Below, one piece after another: positions 27,917 to 41,067 of a stretch of DNA of 64,000 bases. Source of the stretch: Chloroflexota bacterium (GTDB lineage: Bacteria; Chloroflexota; Anaerolineae; Anaerolineales; Villigracilaceae); NCBI GenBank assembly GCA_021414245.1, contig JAIOOU010000017.1, positions 124,001 through 188,000 on the forward strand, in the 5' to 3' direction. Both the position numbers and the translations under genes were made by a program. The notes beneath the pieces are model-generated. The model was not told where the DNA came from. It saw only the letters and a list, made by a program, of their open reading frames with translations, and made no database searches. Position 1 is the stretch's first letter; the number at the start of each line of letters is the position of its first letter.

Positions 27917-30900
27917 TTAGTAGCCAACGCTGGACACGTCATTGGACGGTCTCCACTGAGACCACTTATCCGTCGCAGGGTCAATGGTCATATTACTGGC
28001 GGGGCCGCCCTGCCAGAACACCTGGAAGACGTTCGGGTCGCCGTCACGGATGGAGGTGAACGCAAGGTTGGTGCCGCCACAGTCCCAGGTTGGCCCGGAA
28101 TCGGGTCCGGCATAATCTGTGACATGATATTCCTTGGCGGCCTTCAAATCGTAGCTGTACACATCAAGGTTCCCATTGCGCTCTGATTGATATGCCAGGC
28201 GGTATCCTTCTGGCGACCAGGCAATATTATTGGTCTTGCCGTCGGTGGTGATGCGCTGCAGGTTTTCGCCACTTGCGTCAATAATGTAAAGATCCGTTCC
28301 GCCGTTCTCATCAGAGAGGAAGGAGATCTGCTTGCCGTTCGGGGACCAGGCCGGGAAGGTCTCATTGGCCGCAGTGTTCGTCAACTGGATTTCATTACCG
28401 GTCTCAAGGTCAAGAACATACAGATCCCAGTTGTTGTTTCGATTGCTTTGGAAAACAATCCAGCGCAAGTCCGGCGAATAGAACGGATTGCTGTCATCCG
28501 CCTGGTCACTGGTGACCTGGCGTTCCACACCCGTTACATCATCAATCGTGAAGATATCGAGATTACCGTTCCGATCGCTCTGATAGACAACCGTGCGGGC
28601 ATCCGGTCCATACATCGGATTCGTATTGTTGGAATTGGTTCTCGTCAAACGCACGGGAGCGCTGCTGCCGAGCATGTCAGTTGTGTACAACTCAACATTA
28701 CCGTCGCGATTGCTTTGGAAAACCACCCGTGAATCATTCGGCGCACGACTCGGCCGGCTATCCACAGCTTCACCCTGTGACAGATTGTAGAGCTTGTATC
28801 CAGGCTGGCCTTCGATGCCGTCAAGACGGTAAATTTCGAGATTATTGTCACGGAAAGTATGGAAAATGAGACACTGAATACAAGGCTCGGATTTGGCCGG
28901 GGATATTTCCGGTACCTTGGGTTCCCTGCAAGAGGCCGAGGCAACTTGCTTGGTGACCTGTTTGTCATCTGTGACAGACAGAGTCAAGATGCCTGATCCT
29001 CCGGAAACCGTGATCTTGGTATTTTGACCGGACGCCAACTTAAAGGTCCCGGTATCCACAACTTTTCCATTCGCATCCTTCACCTCATAGGTGTAGTCAG
29101 AGGTCATGTCCGTTCCGTTATTTGTAATCGTGAAGACGACCTGGGCCGTATCTTCAATACAAACTCCGCTGGCAGACAATTTCGGACCGGATGTCTCGGT
29201 ACAGGTTGTTGTTGCCAATTCACTAGAGATATTCTTGTCGTCAATCACAATCAGTTTCAAGATTCCGTAGGTGCCGTTCACATTAATTGTAGCGCTTTGT
29301 CCGGCCGCCAGCTTGAACGTGTTGGTATCGACCACATTACCATTGCTATCCTGGACCTGGTAGGTGTAGTCTGTGTCCATCGCATCCGGGCCGTTGTTGG
29401 TAATGATGAATTTTGCCTGCGCGGTATTCTCGATGCATACTCCGGTGGCGGAAAGATTTACTTCCACCTTCTTGATACAGGTCGCAGTGGCAGCCTTTGT
29501 GGTCACGTTTTTATCATCCGTGATCGATAGGGTCAAAAGTCCATACGTACCTTTTACGGTGATTGTCGTACCCTGGCCTGCATCCAATTTGAATGTACCG
29601 GAATCCACCGTGTTGCCGTTTTCGTCTGTCACAGCATAGGTGTAATCCGTCAACATATCGCCACCATTATTGGTGATGATGAATTTGGCTTCAGCAGTAG
29701 CTGGTTCCACACAAATTCCGGAAGCGCTCAGACTCGGCGGTATGGGTGTGCTCGTCGGTGTATTTGTAGGCGTGCTGGTCGGAGTATTGGTCGCCGTACT
29801 TGTAGGAGTGTTTGACGGTGTCTGGGTCGGTGTGTTGCTGGGCGTGTTCGTCGGCGTGTTGGTTGGAGTATTGGTCGCCGTACTCGTTGGGGTATTTGAC
29901 GGTGTCTGGGTCGGCGTATTGGTCGATGTGCTGGTCGCCGTACTTGTTGGAGTATTCGACGGTGTCTGGGTCGGCGTGTTGCTGGGTGTATTTGTCGGCG
30001 TGTTCGTCGGCGTGCTGGTTGGAGTATTGGTGGCCGTACTCGTTGGGGTATTTGACGGTGTCTGGGTCGGCGTATTGGTTGATGTGCTGGTGGCCGTCTT
30101 GGTTGGCGTCAATGTTGGAGTATTTGTCGGCGGGGCACAATAGTAGGAGTCAGCGTAGGCGCCAGGATTGTGAAGGGTAATCACAGTCCCATCCACGATG
30201 ACAGACGCATCCGTAATATTATAGGCTCCATCAGCGAGATAAGCAAAGTAATGCCAGGCATTTCCTGTATGCTTTCCAGTGGATATCGTTCCGTATGTGT
30301 AGGTGAGCTCGCCTGGGGTGACGCCATCAGGCACATTCAACAGCACAAAATGAACTTCAACCTTGTTCTCCACGCATGCAATATGTGAAAGGTTAAGCTG
30401 GTAAGGCACCGGGGTTGCCGTATTTGTTGGGGTGCTGGTCGGTGTATTGGTGGGCGTACTGGTCGCAGTGCTCGTGGGTGTATCCGTGGGAACCGATGTG
30501 CTGGTTGGGCGCGTGGAACATGTACCCACAGAGCTTAACTTCACTGATGAAAGGAATTCAGTGCTGTAGGTTACTTTCATGGTGGCATTACCCGCCCCAA
30601 CAATCGAGAATTTCTCACCCGGATTCAAATTAATCGAACCGCTCTGAGCCGGATCTGAAAGATCGTAGGCTGCATCATTCACCGTTCCGGAAATATTCGT
30701 AATTACAAATTTCGCGGTCAGGTCCGTATTACAAAAGACCTGCAATTGCATTTGGCCGTCCACGATCACCCGCGTTGAAGTGGGCGAAGGCGTTTCAGTG
30801 AAGGTTGAAGTGGCGGAAGGTGTTTGAGTTAATGTGGCCGTATTGGTTGCAGAAGGCGTTCTGCTGGCAGTGGGGGTATTCGTAATGGTCGGGGTGTTCG

Positions 30901-32071
30901 TGATCGTAGGAGTGTAGGTAGCCGTTTTAGTGGGGGTAATCGTACCTGTCGCAGTCTTTGTCGGACTTGCAGTTCGAGTGGGCGAAGGAGTCCTTGTCGG
31001 CGTAAAGGTCGGCGTATAGGTAATATCCGTCGCTGTCGGTGAAGGAGTCCTGGTAGCAGTGGCAGTTCTGGTAGCAGTGGCAGTCCTGGTAGCAGTTGGT
31101 GTACGCGTATCTGTTGCAGTGGCAGTTGCCGTCTTGGTAGGCGTAAAAGTCGGGGTATAGGTTATATCCGTCGCCGTGGGCGAAGGCGTGCTTGTTGAAG
31201 TGGCGGTTTTTGTTGAGGTGGCAGTTCTGGTCGCCGTTGCAGTACTAGTGTTAGTTGGAGTATTTGTGATTGTGGGCGTATTGGTAATTGTCGGCGTGTT
31301 GGTAATCGTCTTGGTCGGGGTGACAGTTTTGGTCGGTGTGGAAGTTTTGGTCGGCGTCCTGGTCGGAGTAAAGGTTGGAGTCTGGGAAACTGGGGTGACA
31401 CTGGGCGTTGAAGTAGGCAACGGCAGACATTCACCGGTGGCCGACAAACTGACCTGTTCCAGCTGGGAGGTGGTGTAATTCACATCGACAGTAGCATTTC
31501 CCGCCGCATTAAATGAAATACTATCGCCCGCCCCGAGATTTAATGAATTCGTGACTACAGCCTTCCCTGGCTCTTTAATCTTATACGAACCGCCAGTTAA
31601 AGCGCCGCCATCGTTTGCAATTGTAAAGGTGGCCGACAAGTCATTGTTACAGGCAACACTTAACCCCAGGTAGGGATCATCAACCACAGCGGCCGCAGCA
31701 GCGGCTTCCTTCTGTGTGGCAGTTGGACTGGCAGTAAAGGTGGCCGTGGGACTGGCAGATGCTGTTGGAGTGTTTTGGTCAGTCGCAGTGGCGGCCTGAT
31801 CCACATCCGAGGTGGCAGTTGGTGTGGACGTTGACTCTGGAGTGGCTGTATCCACAGCTGTCGGTACGTCTGTAGCGGTGGCCTCGGCAGTCGGCTCATC
31901 GGTGGCTGCAGGCGGTTCGGTGGCAACCGGTTCCTCTGTAGGCGGTTCAGTCCCGACGCCGCCTGCACCAGGTAAAAGATCCCCGCTGGGAGCACAGGAG
32001 GAAACCAGAATGGAAAGGATGACAAAAATGGAAAGAAATCTCAATATATTAAAGTATTTTACTGTTTTCAT
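27917..32071 (-). CDS. Giant stalked lipoprotein with Thr/Pro linkers, beta-sandwich modules and PD40 propeller
   Basis: A 1384-residue predicted lipoprotein with signal peptide and lipobox (ILVSSC) at the N-terminus. Architecture in order: Thr/Pro/Ala-rich stalk (residues 35-135), module 1, a long Thr-Pro linker of about 220 residues, module 2, a short linker, module 3, a linker of about 135 residues, then three similar consecutive modules 4-6. Modules begin with patterns like LSATGVCIENTAQAKFIITN and contain DYTYxVxDxNGxxVD. Residues about 1060-1384 form PD40/TolB-like blades with repeated SPDLRWIVFQSNRNNNWDLY-type units. It is likely a long surface projection that presents a propeller head. 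No catalytic motif was found. Binding partner unknown. Confidence 0.88.
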   Translation of the reverse strand: MKTVKYFNILRFLSIFVILSILVSSCAPSGDLLPGAGGVGTEPPTEEPVATEPPAATDEPTAEATATDVPTAVDTATPESTSTPTATSDVDQAATATDQNTPTASASPTATFTASPTATQKEAAAAAAVVDDPYLGLSVACNNDLSATFTIANDGGALTGGSYKIKEPGKAVVTNSLNLGAGDSISFNAAGNATVDVNYTTSQLEQVSLSATGECLPLPTSTPSVTPVSQTPTFTPTRTPTKTSTPTKTVTPTKTITNTPTITNTPTITNTPTNTSTATATRTATSTKTATSTSTPSPTATDITYTPTFTPTKTATATATDTRTPTATRTATATRTATATRTPSPTATDITYTPTFTPTRTPSPTRTASPTKTATGTITPTKTATYTPTITNTPTITNTPTASRTPSATNTATLTQTPSATSTFTETPSPTSTRVIVDGQMQLQVFCNTDLTAKFVITNISGTVNDAAYDLSDPAQSGSINLNPGEKFSIVGAGNATMKVTYSTEFLSSVKLSSVGTCSTRPTSTSVPTDTPTSTATSTPTNTPTSTPTNTATPVPYQLNLSHIACVENKVEVHFVLLNVPDGVTPGELTYTYGTISTGKHTGNAWHYFAYLADGAYNITDASVIVDGTVITLHNPGAYADSYYCAPPTNTPTLTPTKTATSTSTNTPTQTPSNTPTSTATNTPTSTPTNTPTNTPSNTPTQTPSNTPTSTATSTSTNTPTQTPSNTPTSTATNTPTNTPTNTPSNTPTQTPSNTPTSTATNTPTSTPTNTPTSTPIPPSLSASGICVEPATAEAKFIITNNGGDMLTDYTYAVTDENGNTVDSGTFKLDAGQGTTITVKGTYGLLTLSITDDKNVTTKAATATCIKKVEVNLSATGVCIENTAQAKFIITNNGPDAMDTDYTYQVQDSNGNVVDTNTFKLAAGQSATINVNGTYGILKLIVIDDKNISSELATTTCTETSGPKLSASGVCIEDTAQVVFTITNNGTDMTSDYTYEVKDANGKVVDTGTFKLASGQNTKITVSGGSGILTLSVTDDKQVTKQVASASCREPKVPEISPAKSEPCIQCLIFHTFRDNNLEIYRLDGIEGQPGYKLYNLSQGEAVDSRPSRAPNDSRVVFQSNRDGNVELYTTDMLGSSAPVRLTRTNSNNTNPMYGPDARTVVYQSDRNGNLDIFTIDDVTGVERQVTSDQADDSNPFYSPDLRWIVFQSNRNNNWDLYVLDLETGNEIQLTNTAANETFPAWSPNGKQISFLSDENGGTDLYIIDASGENLQRITTDGKTNNIAWSPEGYRLAYQSERNGNLDVYSYDLKAAKEYHVTDYAGPDSGPTWDCGGTNLAFTSIRDGDPNVFQVFWQGGPASNMTIDPATDKWSQWRPSNDVSSVGY
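29735..30138 (-). repeat. Coding tandem repeats: Thr-Pro linker 3
   Basis: About 400 bases of degenerate 12-base units encoding Thr-Pro tetrapeptides (TNTP, TSTP, TQTP, SNTP). Longer blocks, such as the one encoding NTPTQTPSNTPTSTAT, recur several times, suggesting expansion by slippage or recombination. Confidence 0.85.
30413..30515 (-). repeat. Coding tandem repeats: Thr-Pro linker 2
   Basis: About 100 bases of the same 12-base pattern, encoding TPTSTATSTPTNTPTSTP-type sequence between modules 2 and 3. Confidence 0.8.
30770..31430 (-). repeat. Coding tandem repeats: Thr-Pro linker 1
   Basis: About 660 bases encoding a Thr/Pro/Ala linker in which the block SPTATDITYTPTFTPT occurs twice and TATRTATATRT units recur. 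Nucleotide repeats are more diverged than in linker 3, suggesting an older expansion. Confidence 0.85.
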
Positions 32072-33228: not shown

Positions 33229-33234
33229 GATTTG

Positions 33235-33305
33235 CTGGGGACAATGGATTCGAACCACTACTAATTGCTCCAGAGGCAATTGTCCTGCCATTAGACGAGT
33301 CCCCA
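33235..33305 (-). tRNA. tRNA-Gln (anticodon CUG)
   Basis: A 71-base cloverleaf on the minus strand: acceptor TGGGGAC/GTCCCCA, D-arm GTC/GAC with the GG of the D-loop, anticodon arm ATTGC-CTCTGGA-GCAAT with anticodon CTG, and T-arm AGTGG-TTCGAAT-CCATT. The discriminator is G73, as expected for tRNA-Gln. It begins with the weak U1-A72 pair that GlnRS prefers. The 3' CCA is not encoded (genome reads CAA), so CCA-adding enzyme is required. It lies about 570 bases from glnS on the opposite strand. Confidence 0.95.
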
Positions 33306-33750: not shown

Positions 33751-33870
33751 TACGAGGTTCAAATCAGAAAACCATCAGGGGCGGGAATGCGACTCTTTAA
33801 CGGGGCAGACGGAAGTCCGGAAAGAGGCGGAATCACATCCCCTGAAATCCATCACGAAGGCAATTCATCC

Positions 33871-35541
33871 ATGAGCGACGAAGAAACCAAACCCACCGAT
33901 TTTATCCGCGAGGCCGTTGCGGAAGACCTTAGAAGCGGACGCTTCAAAACAGTCCGAACCCGTCTGCCTCCCGAACCAAACGGCTACCTGCACATCGGTC
34001 ACGTGAAAGCCTTCATGATCGACTATCTGATCGCAAAGGAAAACGGCGGCGAACTGATCCTGAGATTCGATGACACGAACCCAACCAGGGAGGAGACTGA
34101 GTTTGTGGAGGCGATCGAAGAGGATGCGCGCTGGCTCGGCATTGAATGGGTCAAGGTGACCTACGCCTCGGATTATTTTGACGAGCTGTATGAGTGGGCC
34201 AAAAGGCTGGTCCTGATGGGCAAGGCGTATGTGGACGACCAGACACCGGAGGAAGTCAGCGCCAACCGCGGAACCCTGACCGAGCCAGGAAAGAATTCTC
34301 CATATCGCGACCGCGATGTTGAGGAGAATATGGACCTGCTGGAACGGATGAAGGATGGCGAATTTCCGGAGGGTTCACGCATTCTGCGTGCAAAGATCGA
34401 CATGGCACATCCCAATATCAATATGCGCGATCCAGCCATGTACCGGATCATTCACAATCCGCCCCATCATCGCACCGGAGACAAATGGAAGATCTATCCG
34501 ATGTACGATTGGGCACATGGGCAGAATGACTCCATGGAGGGCATCACCCACTCGCTGTGTTCCCTGGAATATGAAAATCACCGCCCCTTGTATGAATGGT
34601 TTCCCGAACAGCTGGGGGTCTTTAAGCCAAGGCAGATCGAATTTGCCCGCCTGAACCTGACGTATACCGTGATGAGCAAACGCAAGCTGCGCCGGCTCGT
34701 TGAAGAAAAGGTTGTCAACGGCTGGGACGATCCCCGCATGCCAACCTTGCGCGCCATGCGCCGCCGCGGATACACCTCCGCGGCTGTACTGGATTTCATC
34801 CGCCGCGTGGGCGTCGCAAAGAATTATAGCGTCAGCGACGTCTCGCTTCTGGAGGCCTGTGTACGCGAGGACCTCAATAAAAATTCACCGAGAAGGATGG
34901 CTGTTCTCAAACCATTGAAGGTCGTCATCGATAATTATCCGGAGGACCTTGTCGAGGAAATGGACGCGGTCAACAACCCCGAAGATGTCAACGCGGGCAC
35001 CCGCAAGGTCCCTTTTTCAAAAACAATCTACATTGAACAGGACGATTTTCGTGAAACTCCCCCGCCGAAGTATTATCGGCTATTTCCCGGAAATGAAGTC
35101 CGTTTGCGCTACGCCTATTTCATCAAATGCACGCATGTGATCAAGAATGACAAAGGCCAGATCACAGAGGTGCACGCCACCTACGACCCCAGCACCCGCG
35201 GAGGCGACTCTGCGGATGGGCGAAAGGTCAAATCCACGATCCATTGGGTATCCGCCAGACATGCGCAGGAAGCCGAGATCCGCATGTACGACCGGCTTTT
35301 TACAAAGGAAGACCCTGAAGAGGGCGAAGAGGGGTTCCTCAGCTGTTTGAATCCCAACTCCCTTGAGATCCTAACTGGAAAAGTGGAACCGGATCTCGCT
35401 TCACCGGAAGTTGGTTCGCGATTCCAGTTTGAACGTCTTGGCTATTTCAGTGTGGATTCGGACTCAACACCCGGCAGGCCAGTTTTCAATTTAACGGTCA
35501 ATTTAAAAGATACATGGGCTAAAATGGAAAAAAAGGGATAG
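33871..35541 (+). CDS. glnS: Glutaminyl-tRNA synthetase
   Basis: About 556 residues, class I synthetase attaching glutamine to tRNA-Gln. The catalytic motifs are [16 protein letters not shown] (HIGH) and VMSKRKL (KMSKS). [39 protein letters not shown] and the C-terminal anticodon-binding beta-barrels (from about residue 330) are also present. The start is set at [20 protein letters not shown], the usual family N-terminus, rather than an in-frame ATG 84 bases upstream. Length matches the E. coli enzyme. The presence of GlnRS implies that direct glutaminylation operates. Its tRNA partner is encoded next door. Confidence 0.96.
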
Positions 35542-35607
35542 AGTCTGCCAACGATCAACCCGCTTTTTGTTTTTTTGAACAAGCCGGCCAATTTCAAGGG
35601 AGTACAA

Positions 35608-36090
35608 GTGAACAGCAAAAAATATCGTTTCCTCGCAGCAACCGTTATCATCCTCTCTCTTGCCACGGCCTGTTCCCCAAAGGCGACTCCCACCCCTGTG
35701 GACATCATGGGGACGGCAGCCCAGCTGGCAAGCAGCATGTTGACCCAAACCGTGGCCGCTTTTTCCCCAACACCGCTGCCGCCAACAGAGACTGCAACCC
35801 CTAGTTTTACAGACACCCCCATCCCCACGGAGACCAACAGCGCACCGCCCAAAAGGCCGGTGGTCATGGAATTCACCGGCTGCTGGACCGGCCCCGGAGA
35901 CACCTACACCTTGATCAGCAACATCGACCCCAAGAAATATGTGGATGTGATCGGCATCGGCAGCGAGCCCGGTTGGTACGTGATTCGAAACCCGTATTTT
36001 CACAACCCCTGCTGGATCGAGATCGCGCATCTCAAGATCGACCCGCGCATGGATTTTTCAGTCTTCCCGGTCATGACTCCCGGCCCTTAA
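35608..36090 (+). CDS. Lipoprotein with Thr/Pro linker and SH3-like domain
   Basis: About 160 residues from a GTG start chosen because AAGGGAG lies 5 bases upstream (an ATG at 35575 would add 11 residues). A signal peptide ends in a lipobox (LSLATAC). A Pro/Thr linker (PTPLPPTETATPSFTDTPIP) leads to a C-terminal domain, about residues 85-150, with GCWTGPGDTYTLISNI, GSEPGWYVIRNP and CWIEIAHLKI. This resembles bacterial SH3 (SH3b-like) domains that bind cell-wall or protein ligands. Probably surface-anchored; the ligand is unknown. Expression may come from glnS read-through, since only 66 bases separate them. Confidence 0.75.
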   Translation: MNSKKYRFLAATVIILSLATACSPKATPTPVDIMGTAAQLASSMLTQTVAAFSPTPLPPTETATPSFTDTPIPTETNSAPPKRPVVMEFTGCWTGPGDTYTLISNIDPKKYVDVIGIGSEPGWYVIRNPYFHNPCWIEIAHLKIDPRMDFSVFPVMTPGP

Positions 36091-36117
36091 TTATTCCATG
36101 GAATCAACGCCTGCTTC

Positions 36118-36147
36118 TTGACAATCAAGCCGGAGTTGTTGTAAACT
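36118..36147 (+). promoter_or_regulatory. Promoter of the ABC-exporter leader
   Basis: Perfect -35 TTGACA (36118-36123) and -10 TAAACT (36142-36147) with an 18-base spacer. The transcript would start near 36154 and carry the leader peptide and attenuator before the exporter genes. Confidence 0.6.
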
Positions 36148-36179
36148 GAAATCCGCAATACGAACCTGAAGAAAGGAGC

Positions 36180-36275
36180 GCACTTCAACATGATTGCAGC
36201 AAAATTTCCATCTTCCAGAAGTGCACTTGAAGGCCTCTAAAGGTTCTTTTGTGTCTTTTCAGCCACGGTGCACTT
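36180..36275 (+). promoter_or_regulatory. Competing leader hairpins (1:2 and 2:3) of a putative attenuator
   Basis: Segment 1, GCACTTC (36180-36186), is complementary to segment 2, GAAGTGC (36218-36224). Segment 2 extended, AAGTGCACT (36219-36227), is also complementary to segment 3, GGTGCACTT (36267-36275), which is part of the terminator's 5' arm and loop. Pairings 1:2 and 2:3 exclude each other, and 2:3 excludes the terminator. Segment 1 lies before the leader start codon and segment 2 inside its last codons, so ribosome position would decide which forms. Confidence 0.6.
36190..36240 (+). CDS. 16-residue leader peptide of the ABC exporter
   Basis: ATG at 36190 to TAA at 36240 encodes MIAAKFPSSRSALEGL. 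AAAGGAG (36172-36178) lies 11 bases upstream, slightly far but usable. The frame sits between the promoter and an intrinsic terminator, over the pairing segments of the leader. Its likely function is to position a ribosome on the leader rather than to make a working peptide. Known precedent: the BmrB peptide controlling the bmrCD heterodimeric exporter of Bacillus subtilis. There is no sequence evidence that this peptide is homologous to BmrB. Confidence 0.55.
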   Translation: MIAAKFPSSRSALEGL

Positions 36276-36292
36276 TGCATCGTGGCTTTTTT
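36262..36292 (+). terminator. Attenuator terminator before the ABC exporter
   Basis: GCCACG-G-TGCA paired with TGCA-T-CGTGGC around a CTT loop, followed by six T and then ATT. It lies 59 bases before the first exporter ATG and 22 bases after the leader-peptide stop. Being inside the leader, it must be bypassed for exporter expression. Confidence 0.8.
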
Positions 36293-36350
36293 ATTGCCCA
36301 TGCCTGGGACTAATCGTACAGTCTACCTTTTAAGTTGGATCCAAAAAAAT

Positions 36351-38096
36351 ATGAAGTTATCCTTTAAATCCTACTGGAATCTGCTCTCCGACCACATCCG
36401 CCCGCAAAAGGGTCGATTCATTTTGCTTGCAATTCTACTTTTTGGGAGCATCGGCCTGCGGATACTTGCCCCGCAGATCATGCGGAAATTTATCGATTCG
36501 GCCCTTGCCGGCGAAGCACTAAACACCCTCACCTGGACCGCGGTGACCTTCATCGGCATCGCCCTGGTTCAACAGGCCGTTGCAGTAAGCGTCACCTATC
36601 TTGGCGAAAATGTCGCCTGGACGGCCACCAACGATCTGCGGGCGGAACTGGCATGGCACGCCCTCAACCTCGACATGCGTTTCCACAACGATCATACACC
36701 CGGAGAATTGATCGAAAGAATTGATGGGGATGTGACCGAACTGGCCACTTTTTTTTCCCAGTTCGCACTCAATCTGATCGCCAATGGCTTGCTATTGATC
36801 GGTATTTTGACCGCACTTTTTCTTGAAGACTGGCGGGCGGGCCTGGTTTTCACCATATATTCAATCCTCACCATCCTGATCCTGGGCAGGGTCAAGGATA
36901 TTGCCGTTCCCCATCAAAAAGCCAGACGCGAAGCCGAGGCCCAGCTCTATGGATTTATCGAGGAACAACTGGCCGGAACGGAGGATATCCGTTCGAGTGG
37001 AGCTGTGGACTATTCCATTCAGGAACTATTCCGGCACCAGGGCATCATCCTTGGTCACAATCGCAAGGCGCATTTCAAACGCTGGATCATTGAAAATGCA
37101 ATGGGGTTTGCACTGACGACTGGCACTTTGCTGGCCATATCCAGCGGCTACCAGCTCTTCTCGGCCGGGTTGGTCACAATCGGGACAGTGTATCTCTTTG
37201 TGCATTACATCAATCTCCTGGAGGAGCCCTTCTGGGCAATGACGCATGAAATCGAAAGCTTTCAAACCATCGGCGCCTGCGTGGAAAGACTGACCGAATT
37301 CAGGAATTTCAAACCGGACATTATCGGCGGGCAGGGCCTGGAAATCCCCCTTCGCCCGCTTGCTCTTAAGTTCCAGAATGTCAATTTTTCCTACAACGAG
37401 ATCGATGCCGTCCTCAACGAACTCACCTTTGAATTAAAACCCGGCTCCATCCTGGGTTTGCTTGGCCGGACCGGCAGCGGAAAGACCACACTCGGGCGGT
37501 TGATTTTCCGGTTATATGATGTGAAATCCGGCAGCATTCAGGTTAATCATCATGACCTCAGGGAGATTCGCCTGGAAACCCTGCGCAAGAACATTGCCAT
37601 GGTCACACAGGATGTTCAATTATTCCGGGCCAGCATCCGTGACAACCTGACCTTTTTTGACCGCTCGATATCCGATGAAAAGATCCTCTCGACCTTGCAG
37701 GATCTTGAGCTTGGAGACTGGTTGAAGAGCCAGCCCAACGGACTGGATACGGAGCTTGAGACGGGATCCCGCTCCCTGTCAGCGGGCGAAGCGCAGCTGC
37801 TGGCTTTTACGCGCGTCTTCCTAAGAGATCCCGGGCTGGTCATCCTGGATGAAGCGTCATCCAGGCTCGATCCCCCCACCGAACAAAAACTGGAACGGGC
37901 GATCGACAAATTACTGAAAAACCGGACAGCCATCATCATCGCGCATCGCCTGGATACGATCCACCGGGCCGATGAGATCTTAATCCTGGACCAGGGTCGT
38001 GCAAGTGAATATGGTGACCGCAGACAACTGGCAGCCGATCCAAATTCGCGCCTCTACCAGCTTCTCCAGACCGGAATGGAAGAGGTGCTGGCATGA
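36351..38096 (+). CDS. Heterodimeric ABC exporter, subunit A (catalytic Walker B)
   Basis: About 581 residues: a six-helix type IV exporter domain (residues 15-300) and a nucleotide-binding domain (about 335-575). Walker A is GRTGSGKTT, the Q-loop AMVTQDVQ, Walker B VILDEASS with the catalytic Glu, and the H-loop IIAHRLD. The signature is LSAGE rather than LSGGQ. Start ATG 36351 is the conserved-type N-terminus; ribosome binding looks weak. The partner gene overlaps by 4 bases (ATGA), so the two are translated together. Likely role: export of drugs, lipids or peptides. Confidence 0.92.
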
Positions 38097-39952
38097 ATGG
38101 TCCCAATCCATTAAACGAAAACAGGGAATATCAAAAAATACCCGCCCTGCCCGCCTGGAAAGTCATCTGGGAAATGCTGCTTTTTCGTCCATGGCTGTGG
38201 TTCATCGACCTGGTCAGCGTCGCCCTGATCCGGTTTTGCTGGCAGGTTGCGCCAGCTCTGATCATCAAGGCCTTTTTCGACATGGTCACCGGCGAGTCTC
38301 AATTGACTTTCGGCATTTGGGCGATCGTGGCATTTCTTTCCGCAACCTGGATCGGCCGCGTCGTGGCGAGCTATGGATTTTATTATGCGGATGTGCCCAT
38401 TTTCGCAGACATGTCCACACTGCTGCGAAAGAATCTCTTAAAATATATATTACGCCGGCCGGGCGCTTCGCAACTCCCAGATTCACCCGGAGAAGCTGTC
38501 AGCCGTTTCAAAACAGATGTGAATGAAATCCCGCTTTTTGTCATCCTGATCAACGACATCATGGTGGGATTGGTCATTATCGCGATTGCAATCATTCTGA
38601 TGACGCAGATCAGTCCATCGGTGACCGTAATGGCACTGATTCCATTGATCATAGTCGGAGTGATCGCCAACCTTGCAACCGGCCGCATTGAACATTATCG
38701 CCGCACTTCCAGGCAGGCGGGCGGAAAGGTGACCGGATTTGTCGGAGAGTTCTTTGGCGCCGTGCAAGCCGTCAAAGTGGCCACCGCCGAGAAAAATGTC
38801 ATCGATCACTTTCACAAATTGAATGACACACGCCGGGTGTTGACCATCCGCGAAAAACTATTCGACGAAGTGCTGGGCTCCATCTACCGCAACACATCCA
38901 CGCTGGGGACGGGAGTCATCCTTGTGTTGGTCGGCCAGTCCATGCGGACCGGAAATTTCACCCTGGGAGACTTTTCACTTTTCGTTTATTTGCTGCAGAG
39001 CATGGGCGACCTGACGACTTTTGGAGGCATGCTTGCAGCCCGATACAAACAGCTCAATGTATCCGTCCAGCGCATGTATCATCTGATGGAAAATGCACCG
39101 CTGGAAGCCCTGGTCGAACCAAGCCCTGTGAATTTGGAGGGGCCCCTTCCGGAGGTGTTCTACCCTCCCAAGACCGAATCAGACCGACTGATGGAACTGG
39201 TTGCAAACCATTTGACCTTTCACTACCCGGGGACAGATGCCTCGCGACGTGGCATTGAGAATGTATCCTTGAAAATTAAACGCAACACGTTGACAGTGGT
39301 CACCGGCCGGATCGGCTCTGGAAAAACCACCCTGTTACGAACCTTGCTTGGCCTGCTTCCACTTGAATCCGGTGACATATACTGGAACGGAAACAGGCTC
39401 GCTTCCCCGGGAGAATTCCTGATCCCGCCGCGCTGTGCATATACAGCCCAGGTGCCCCGTTTGTTCAGCAACAGCCTGCGGAATAATATCCTGCTCGGTC
39501 TGGACCGATCCGACGATGAGGTCCACAAGGCGGCAAGACTGGCCGTTATGGATCGCGACCTCGAGCAAATGGATGACAAGCTGGATACCATGGTCGGTGC
39601 TCGGGGCGTAAAACTCTCGGGAGGACAATCGCAGCGATCCGCAGCCGCGCGCATGTTCATCCGTGAGCCGGAGCTGATCGTATTCGATGACCTCTCCAGC
39701 GCCCTGGATGTTGAAACGGAAAGTCAACTCTGGGAACGGATCTTTGAGAACAACAATATGACCTGCCTGGTTGTGTCCCATCGACGGCCACTGCTCAGGC
39801 GGGCGGATCATATCATCGTCCTGAAGGATGGGCGCGTGGAAGCGGAAGGCAGGCTTGACCAGTTGCTGGAAACCAGCCAGGAGATGCGCGAACTATGGAA
39901 ATTGGAAGAGAATGGAGCCGGGCAGAATGAACTCAAAACAACTCATTCTTGA
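38093..39952 (+). CDS. Heterodimeric ABC exporter, subunit B (degenerate Walker B)
   Basis: A 619-residue membrane-ATPase half-transporter with six helices (about residues 30-330) and a nucleotide-binding domain (about 375-600). Walker A is GRIGSGKTT, the signature LSGGQSQR is canonical, and the H-loop is VVSHRRP. Walker B reads [10 protein letters not shown], with Asp in place of the catalytic Glu. With subunit A this gives one competent site (A Walker motifs with the B signature) and one degenerate site (B Walker motifs with LSAGE), the hallmark of heterodimeric exporters such as BmrCD or TM287/288. It overlaps the next gene by 26 bases. Confidence 0.92.
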
Positions 39953-40385
39953 GCAACGCGAGATCTTCAACCTCGCCCTGATCCGCAAAGATGCGGAGAC
40001 CATCCGCGGCCTGCTCGCCCCAAGCTATCATATTGTCACCGGACGCAGCGCACAAAATCACGGCGCGGAAGCGGAAACTCAACGCTGGGCGGAATTATTC
40101 AGGGAAGATCCATCTGCAGTTTATCGCCGCACTCCGCGGGAAGTCACAATCAATGAGGAGTGGGGCCTGACGGAGGAGCTGGGCAACTGGCAGGGCAGCT
40201 ACACAGCCGAAGGGACTCTCCTCCGCGCATCCGGTGTTTACGCGGCAAAATGGCAAAGAACCATAAACGGGAATTGGGTGCTGCAGATTGAAGTCTTCAC
40301 CACATTAACCTGCTCGGGCCTGGAAAGCGGCTGCCTGAAACCTGATCCAATTCCCGATTTCCAGAAATCAAACGCCCATTCCTGA
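39927..40385 (+). CDS. NTF2-like (DUF4440/SnoaL-type) protein
   Basis: About 152 residues with the cone-like NTF2 fold pattern: an N-terminal helix ([20 protein letters not shown]), [11 protein letters not shown], then strands carrying [24 protein letters not shown] and [13 protein letters not shown]. This matches DUF4440, small-ligand binding or hydrolytic folds without a fixed function. The ATG at 39927 lies inside the end of the ABC subunit B gene, so it belongs to the exporter operon. It may bind the exported compound or a related metabolite; this is only contextual. Confidence 0.7.
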
Positions 40386-40443
40386 AAATTTCGGGTATGC
40401 TTGGGGCAGTTCAGGGTCTTATTAAAGGTTAACGAGCGCAATC

Positions 40444-41067
40444 ATGAATAAAAAACAAGCCTTGCAATTTCAGGAACTACTGCTTCGTTATTCACAGGAA
40501 ACGAATGACGTTGAAAAAAAAGCCATCGAAGAAGGGCTGTGGAAACAGTATGGTACCGAGCAGGCCATCTTCGTACTGGACATGTCGGGCTTTTCGCTGC
40601 TGACCCGCAAACACGGCATTATCCATTATTTGTCCATGGTGCGGCGCATGCAGTTAACAGCCGAACCGGTCATCGAATCCTTCGGCGGCACGGTCATCAA
40701 ATTCGAGGCAGATAACTGTTTTGCCATGTTCCCGGATTCACTGCCGGCGATCAATGCCGCCATTGCACTGCAGCTGGCTTTTGAGGCCTCCAACCTGCTG
40801 ACCTCGGACGAGTTCGACGTTCATATTTCCTGCGGAATTGACTATGGAAAGATCCTGATGATCGGCAATGAGGATTGTTTCGGGGATGCCGTCAATCGGG
40901 CTTGCAAACTTGGGGAGGACGTCGCCCTGGCGGGAGAGATCATTGTGACCCGCGAGGCAATGGAAAGAGTTCCCCCACAAGCCGATCTGAAATATCAGGA
41001 AGTGAATATTTCCGTCTCCGGAATTACCATCCCGGCTTATACAATCGAATATCGCCCCGAGACTTAA
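40444..41067 (+). CDS. Class III nucleotidyl cyclase-like protein with altered active site
   Basis: A 207-residue soluble protein with a single cyclase homology domain (about 35-190). Metal-binding Asp residues occur in VLDMSGFSLL and KFEADNCFAMF. The motif CFGDAVNRACKLG replaces the usual YxGxxVNxAxRL. Four residues after the Asn, where cyclases have the transition-state Arg, there is Lys. The substrate-specifying Lys (IKFEAD) and Asp (EDCFGD) positions look adenine-like. It may be a weak adenylate cyclase or a nucleotide-binding regulator. No sensor domain is attached. The gene ends in a strong terminator. Confidence 0.78.
   Translation: MNKKQALQFQELLLRYSQETNDVEKKAIEEGLWKQYGTEQAIFVLDMSGFSLLTRKHGIIHYLSMVRRMQLTAEPVIESFGGTVIKFEADNCFAMFPDSLPAINAAIALQLAFEASNLLTSDEFDVHISCGIDYGKILMIGNEDCFGDAVNRACKLGEDVALAGEIIVTREAMERVPPQADLKYQEVNISVSGITIPAYTIEYRPET

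Follow-up and report, generated by a model that had tools for sequence, protein, structure and literature searches.

What determines whether transcription reaches the pair of ABC exporter genes that begins at position 36351 of the window, by which is meant the whole 64,000-nucleotide stretch of Chloroflexota DNA analyzed here? The first gene (36351-38096, plus strand) encodes subunit 1 (P0001, 581 aa), which has the catalytic Glu in its Walker B motif and the signature LSAGE; the second (38093-39952, plus strand) encodes subunit 2 (P0002, 619 aa), which has an LSGGQ signature and an Asp in place of the catalytic Glu. These motifs were read by eye. Matches of P0001 include 8t1p_D and YheH, which we take to be BmrD, and the predicted pair fits a heterodimeric exporter of the BmrCD type with one degenerate ATP site, the degeneracy having been judged by eye only. 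Elsewhere in the window, the minus strand encodes a putative secreted protein of 1384 aa (27917-32071), whose long repeats are rich in Thr and Pro and whose C-terminal part by eye resembles a TolB-type propeller, and a tRNA-Gln(CTG) (33234-33305, minus strand) lies beside a glutaminyl-tRNA synthetase-like gene (33787-35541, named by eye).

The original prediction read the DNA just upstream of the exporter as an attenuator, in which the position of a ribosome on a short leader frame selects between mutually exclusive hairpins. When checked again against the sequence, its coordinates for the promoter, frame, terminator, and segments 1-3 were all correct. The promoter that drives the leader (36118-36147, plus strand, as are all parts of the leader) consists of TTGACA (36118-36123), an 18-nt spacer, and TAAACT (36142-36147), with 10 of 12 consensus positions. 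It is followed by the Shine-Dalgarno site of the leader frame, AAAGGAG (36172-36178), by segment 1 (GCGCACTTC, 36178-36186), which lies between this site and the ATG, and by the frame itself (36190-36240), which runs from the ATG at 36190 through 16 codons, translated as MIAAKFPSSRSALEGL, to a TAA at 36238-36240. Segment 2 (GAAGTGCACT, 36218-36227) has two alternative partners. One is segment 1, whose core GCACTTC (36180-36186) pairs with the segment 2 core GAAGTGC (36218-36224) in a helix that is longer than GCACTTC and reaches all of GCGCACTTC with one mismatch. The other is segment 3 (GGTGCACTT, 36267-36275), which pairing and covariation place in both the 2:3 antiterminator and the terminator. 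The latter, an intrinsic terminator formed by segments 3:4 (36261-36292), has a stem of 12 pairs (36261-36287) and a six-T tail (36287-36292). In addition, a small hairpin (36232-36245) holds the leader stop codon in its loop, and the same region is paired in the computed fold. The parts needed for attenuation as the best explanation, namely a promoter, a short frame with a ribosome-binding site, and an intrinsic terminator, are all present before the gene. The RNA from 36154 to 36300 is more stable than each of 200 dinucleotide shuffles (-46.2 kcal/mol, z = -4.0). Furthermore, initiation downstream of 36292, which had been named as an observation that would refute the prediction, gains no support from a consensus scan, in which no promoter-like site was found between the terminator and the exporter ATG.

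Bare promoter and terminator patterns in positions 34500-41000 are not more frequent than chance would give (3 and 6 found, respectively, versus 4.2 and 8.8 expected). The argument that the leader is real rests not on such scans but on the conserved set of parts upstream of homologous exporters. A search with P0002 (E up to 1e-60) found relatives in 58 of 152 family genomes, and a P0002 search of genome_contigs gave 38 loci, 30 of them from Chloroflexota; the named exporter relatives of high identity belong to Anaerolineales and other Chloroflexota and come nearly all from metagenome assemblies. Of 58 upstream regions extracted, the window's included, 8 duplicates were dropped, leaving 50 that are distinct. 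A leader with a Shine-Dalgarno site, a frame of 16-32 codons, and three alternative pairings is present in 46 of these 50 regions before Anaerolineales exporter homologues. It is absent at the remaining four: L099, whose exporter is 71% identical, and the distant homologues L105, L106, and L107 (47-48%). At L105 a segment 2 match with four mismatches was set aside by name, and the locus was counted as leaderless. In the 46 leaders, the promoter is followed by the Shine-Dalgarno site and segment 1, then by the ATG and a frame of 16-32 codons that holds segment 2 close to its end, and finally by the stop and the terminator. A promoter of the form TTGAC...TGTAMACT ends 38-42 nt 5' of the leader ATG in 41 of 46, the gap between segment 1 and the ATG is 0-3 nt in 41 of 46 (the other five have a diverged 3' end of segment 1), and both the start codon and the Shine-Dalgarno site are conserved in alignment A1 (see below). 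The gap from terminator to exporter ATG in the relatives is 23 to 208 nt. At L049, L054, L068, and L084, REP- or MITE-like inverted repeats of the CATTGCGAGG...CGCAATGAC type were seen by eye between attenuator and gene.

If the pairings matter, compensatory changes should occur in segments 1-3 across relatives, and loss of the complementarity or of the short frame in orthologous leaders would count against the prediction. Such changes are present, and neither loss is seen in the 46 leaders. In A1, an alignment of the 46 exporter leaders that was not fitted to structure, pairing amounts to 95.9% in the 1:2 helix, where 3 of 9 pairs have changed on both sides, and to 99.8% in the 3:4 terminator, where 5 of 10 have. 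Together, these are 8 of 19 pairs and 64 cells with double changes, versus 21.7 in shuffles, none of 500 of which came as high; for the number of further pair types, 23 of 500 did. When the partners were slid by 1-3 columns as a control, pairing was only 22-53%. The 2:3 helix is 91.1% paired, and 3 of 500 shuffles came up to its covariation score. Two of five measures, however, show only weak covariation, with 101 (pairs with double change) and 55 of 500 shuffles as high, in part because two core pairs never vary. A second alignment, A4, holds 89 leaders from several gene contexts, a subset of those found, and was fitted to 1:2 and 3:4 but not to 2:3; a spurious minus-strand match of L086 was excluded by a tighter threshold. 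Here, 1:2 and 3:4 are 97.4% paired, 15 of 19 pairs have changed on both sides, and 165 cells are found versus 29.9 (0 of 500 shuffles). For 2:3, 88.2% are paired, and there are 34 double changes versus 16.4 (0 of 500 shuffles); the same two measures are again weak (95 of 500 for pairs with double change, and 54 of 500). An alignment-free test of uninterrupted runs could be applied to 159 of 169 leaders, the ten left out being those that lack a segment 2 within two mismatches. All ten belong to the 123 further leaders described below, and five of them precede RsgA. Runs scoring at least 6 occur for 2:3 in 128 of the 159 leaders, versus 9.7 after shuffling, and for 1:2 in 145, versus 5.7; they are rarer outside the exporter set (2:3 in 83 of 113, 1:2 in 99 of 113). 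The terminator and the antiterminator have a segment in common, and both structures are conserved.

Computed folding of the three states had been proposed as a check. In the free full-length RNA of the 46 leaders, the median pair probability is 0.95 for 3:4 and 0.90 for 1:2. When the RNA 5' of segment 2 is masked and segment 4 has not yet been made, the mean pair probability of 2:3 exceeds 0.5 in 46 of 46. Once segment 4 is present, with the 5' part still masked, 3:4 beats 2:3 at equilibrium in 45 of 46; consequently, any antitermination must be kinetic and take place during RNA synthesis. With neither a ribosome nor segment 4 in the calculation, the probability of 1:2 is above 0.5 in 35 of 46 leaders, and 2:3 is favored in 11 of 46, the window included. 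In the window's own leader, 1:2 is not predicted to form before segment 4 (0.00 versus 0.86 for 2:3), and the 1:2 arm of the model is therefore weaker here than in most relatives.

These results support the attenuator interpretation, and the window element probably controls the exporter by ribosome-mediated transcription attenuation. Computation establishes the parts and how they covary, the reading frame, the geometry of the stop, and the associated genes; termination in vivo, translation of the frame, the kinetic competition, and the inducing signal, including the induction by drugs that had been proposed, are inferred and have not been demonstrated. In the proposed mechanism, the leader would by default be translated quickly, and the ribosome would stop 10-14 nt past segment 2 and cover it, leaving segments 3 and 4 to pair and transcription to end before the exporter. 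If no ribosome were loaded, 1:2 would form, and 3:4 would again be free to terminate. In times of trouble, a ribosome held at the start or the early codons would block segment 1, and segment 2 would stay free. It could then pair with segment 3 before segment 4 is made, the terminator would be delayed, and the exporter would be transcribed.

The leader frame has the properties that such a mechanism would need. No in-frame stop lies between the ATG and segment 2 in any of the 46 leaders, versus 38 of 46 and 23 of 46 with stops in the other two frames, and the frame is open to segment 2 in 46 of 46 real leaders, versus a mean of 24.5 and a minimum of 16 in shuffles of the same bases. The starts were selected so that the frame passes segment 2; each is an ATG beside segment 1, with no other ATG in the preceding 12 nt. 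The distance from ATG to segment 2 is 28-57 nt in these leaders and 22-82 nt in 110 others, which are the 123 further leaders minus 13 (ten without segment 2, L275 without a stop, L247 without an ATG, and L245, whose frame does not reach the end of segment 2). The stop codon lies 10-14 nt 3' of segment 2 in 45 of 46 exporter leaders and in 95 of the 110. Given the size of a ribosome footprint, a terminating ribosome would cover segment 2 at this distance, and the proposal that normal completion of the peptide covers segment 2 is consistent with the geometry, although geometry is all that it rests on. In 45 of 46, the stop is also enclosed by a hairpin loop whose stem has at least four pairs (control mean 29), and in 36 by one whose stem has at least three G-C pairs (control 8.6). 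This is less clear in the other leaders (82 of 110 versus 66, and 36 versus 17.9). In one leader (L088:205-382), the stop is displaced to 37 nt 3' of segment 2 and is again within a hairpin loop.

The peptide itself appears to matter less. Segment 2 is read in two frames in the exporter leaders, 37 of 46 having an RSAPVDR-like end and 9 of 46 an EVR(P/L)LTV-like end in another frame, which argues that it is the RNA, rather than the peptide, that is kept there. A C-terminal RSAPVDR acting as an arrest-peptide sensor was considered and rejected, since its codons overlap segment 2, 9 of 46 leaders use the other frame, and the RNA explains the conservation. Among the further leaders, 103 of 110 use a single segment 2 frame; the fixed position of the stop can explain this bias, and a role for the peptide is not excluded. 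Before segment 2, codon-position bias is weak (entropy sums of 13.99, 15.16, and 15.85 for positions 1-3 in 36 leaders), and consequently nothing points to an arrest peptide specific to one drug. The [KR]-x-[KR], or +X+, motif is an arrest motif of the macrolide type; it was rejected as a conserved stall signal because only 14 of 46 leaders have it.

Given variable codons and no shared stall motif, it may be enough for the ribosome to be held anywhere early in the frame, perhaps even at the start codon. This leads to the alternative that survives best, in which the element senses initiation: with segment 1 located between the Shine-Dalgarno site and the start codon, the signal could simply be that an initiating ribosome occupies the start site, and the codons would hardly matter. 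Such a sensor agrees with the closeness of segment 1 to the ATG (0-3 nt in 41 of 46), with codons before segment 2 that vary in both sequence and number, and with the weak codon-position bias. However, it has no need for an open frame with a stop at a nearly fixed distance past segment 2 (45 of 46). We regard it as unlikely, but as an idea to be kept in mind, and retain the attenuator as the preferred reading.

The window's leader is not alone. A covariance model, R1, was built from the 46 leaders, and a second, R2, from 89. In the window's genome, R1 finds the window's copy (E 2e-19) and a further strong one, which precedes another ABC exporter (E 6e-14), as well as a weak third before a GNAT gene (E 0.04; 3e-8 with R2, whose training includes this copy). 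R1 matches 196 of 400 genomes of the order (E up to 0.01), and R2 matches 108 of 396 genomes of the class (E up to 0.001), with up to five copies per genome. In a phylum sample, R2 matches 31 of 400 genomes (E up to 0.001), all 31 within the same class; the class and phylum samples overlap, and some R2 matches are training members. No leader was found in 18 genomes that were picked by hand from the phylum sample and all lie outside the class, and eight genomes of other phyla (seven Acinetobacter, one Rhodospirillales) gave no match below E 0.028. In a search with the 4227 Rfam models, only a tRNA in the window reached gathering scores; for nine leader loci searched at E up to 1, the sole match was a weak one to Histone3 in L300, below the cut-off. 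As judged from sequence comparison, the window copy belongs to a homologous family that extends across the class Anaerolineae and stands before several unrelated gene families.

Genes behind the leader were assigned for 123 further copies (60 + 63), which were chosen for spread among the matches and not at random. Choosing the first ORF was doubtful at some loci (L164, L179, L207), and tblastn was used instead, with representatives that were identified with Pfam and came from the same set, so that single members match themselves. The genes are ABC exporters (61), GNAT acetyltransferases (22), and RsgA (13), followed by MFS (5), single ABC ATPase (5), RIO-domain (5), ABC-F (3), RtcB family (2), HAD (2), a methyltransferase (1), and an N6 DNA methylase (1, behind a partial leader), with none found for 3. 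Some assigned genes are not the nearest: the GNAT of L251 is at +1850 and is doubtful, and the MFS of L288 is at +1055, the nearest frame there clustering with the RIO group. Two leaders in one genome, L161 and L162 (G102 C2:1190338 and C2:3038987), are identical in sequence; for the second, the assignment yielded no gene of the set. The RsgA of L263 scores above the TIGR00157 cut-off (214 versus 100 bits), and the ABC-F of L300 above the curated cut-off for ribosomal protection-like ABC-F proteins (439 versus 380 bits), while the RIO, RtcB, MFS, and GNAT representatives fall below the NCBIfam cut-offs of their best matches. The best solved relatives of the GNAT representative are aminoglycoside 6'-acetyltransferases, a weak match (E 3e-11). 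The link to ABC-F is less firm because its leaders match the model weakly (49.4, 41.2, and 31.3 bits, with poor runs in L300) and because none of the four ABC-F genes in the window's genome coincides with any of its three leader matches.

The genes behind the leader fit translation stress. With copies before several unrelated gene families, the leader family is most likely part of a regulon, encoded in cis, that responds to translation stress or antibiotics. From the kinds of genes involved, and without any measurement, the signal is inferred to be translation inhibitors or damaged ribosomes. The same genes bear on a second alternative, an attenuator of the trp or his kind that is released when a charged tRNA is missing. 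Its three-segment logic would be identical, and it would likewise keep the leader frame open, but no run of a single residue is shared by the leader peptides examined by eye, and the genes are exporters, acetyltransferases, and ribosome factors rather than those of biosynthesis; such an attenuator is improbable. Marginally less credible still is an RNA switch that binds a protein or ligand and for which the small frame would be of no consequence. In its favor, conservation is far higher in segments 1-3 and the terminator than in the codons from the ATG to segment 2, but an incidental frame does not account for the absence of in-frame stops in 46 of 46 leaders (mean of 24.5 in shuffles) or for the conserved start codon and Shine-Dalgarno site. 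Finally, an ordinary terminator before the exporter with complementarity by chance, for which it can be said only that pattern scans alone are not above chance, is contradicted by the covariation, the shuffles, the conservation of the upstream segments, and the recurrence before unrelated genes and can practically be dismissed.

The ribosome-mediated attenuator may exist in a more elaborate form in part of the family. A second hairpin and T-run starting within 120 nt of the first is found in 49 leaders, 42 of them outside the exporter groups (GNAT 18, RsgA 9, exporters 7, including one from the set of 46, MFS 4, single ABC ATPase 4, others 7); the window's own leader has no second terminator. 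Segment 5, the 5' arm of the second terminator, fits segment 4, the 3' arm of the first, better within a leader than between leaders, with a mean run of 7.43 versus 5.73 (0 of 5000 permutations), and the result holds for the 42 distinct segments (7.65 versus 5.86, 0 of 5000), with relatedness not removed. For the 27 leaders with runs of at least 7, 4:5 is predicted to form before segment 6 is made in 27 of 27, and with segment 4 away the second terminator is predicted in 27 of 27; when all segments are present, 4:5 prevails in just 3. Examples of the tandem arrangement with matching arms are L163, L263, L165, and L274 and, by eye, L152, the GNAT leader of the window's genome. The predicted folds suggest a two-step "domino" version of the attenuator in these leaders. 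In its off state, 1:2, 3:4, and 5:6 would form, giving two terminators in a row; in its on state, 2:3 would release segment 4, whose pairing with segment 5 would disable the second terminator as well. This remains a hypothesis because the arms would also match if a terminator had simply been duplicated. Taken together, these observations permit a joint reading in which resistance and ribosome-stress genes of Anaerolineae form a regulon that has no master regulator, a single ancestral attenuator that senses the ribosome having been copied before exporters, acetyltransferases, RsgA, MFS pumps, ABC-F, kinase-like, and RtcB-family genes, with part of the copies being six-segment domino switches. 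As a whole this is tentative, and the odds lie somewhat against it.

The closest worked example of the mechanism class is, as originally proposed, the bmrB leader of bmrCD in Bacillus subtilis, in which lincomycin-induced read-through requires translation of the leader (PMC4191407). The bmrB frame has 53 codons and contains the terminator, and what its anti-antiterminator does was left open in that work (PMC4191407). The two leaders have in common a translated frame (predicted here), a terminator, an antiterminator, and a predicted anti-antiterminator before an ABC multidrug exporter pair (PMC4191407). Unlike bmrB, the window family has 16-32 codons, a terminator past the stop, and segment 1 between the Shine-Dalgarno site and the ATG, and related elements recur before unrelated genes.

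In leader attenuators of the trp and his type, the position of the ribosome sets the alternation of 1:2, 2:3, and 3:4, and the terminator lies past the leader stop. The window family has the same alternation and a terminator behind the leader stop; it differs in having no regulatory codon run, a segment 1 that is 5' of the frame, and targets of the resistance and ribosome types. It also resembles vmlR, yxjB, and other antibiotic-responsive leaders of Bacillus, in which attenuation linked to translation inhibitors is reported before an ABC-F or rRNA methylase gene. To our knowledge, each of those leaders belongs to its own gene only, whereas related modules stand before about ten kinds of genes in the Anaerolineae family. 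The WhiB7/WblC regulon of actinomycetes brings resistance and ribosome-related genes into one response to translation inhibitors. There, a transcription factor gathers the genes in trans; here, each gene has its own putative sensor copy.

Attenuators that "hop" between genes have been described (PMC2965389), and "Chloroflex" does not occur in what was available of the main text of that work. Among the papers listed for Anaerolineae or Chloroflexota leader peptides, attenuation, structured RNAs, and tandem terminators, none reports the element, most subscription journals having been outside the search. The mechanism class is known from bmrB, but the family, its anatomy, and its spread appear to be new.

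The anatomy comprises a segment 1 between the Shine-Dalgarno site and the start codon, a stop codon in a hairpin loop, and, in part of the copies, tandem terminators with matching arms. The family supplies a list of candidate resistance and ribosome-rescue genes, together with a covariance model with which more can be found. As far as we know, most antibiotic-sensing leaders have been recognized as individual cases, each with a single gene; in this class, whose members are largely uncultured, a single homologous module seems to mark out a response to translation stress.
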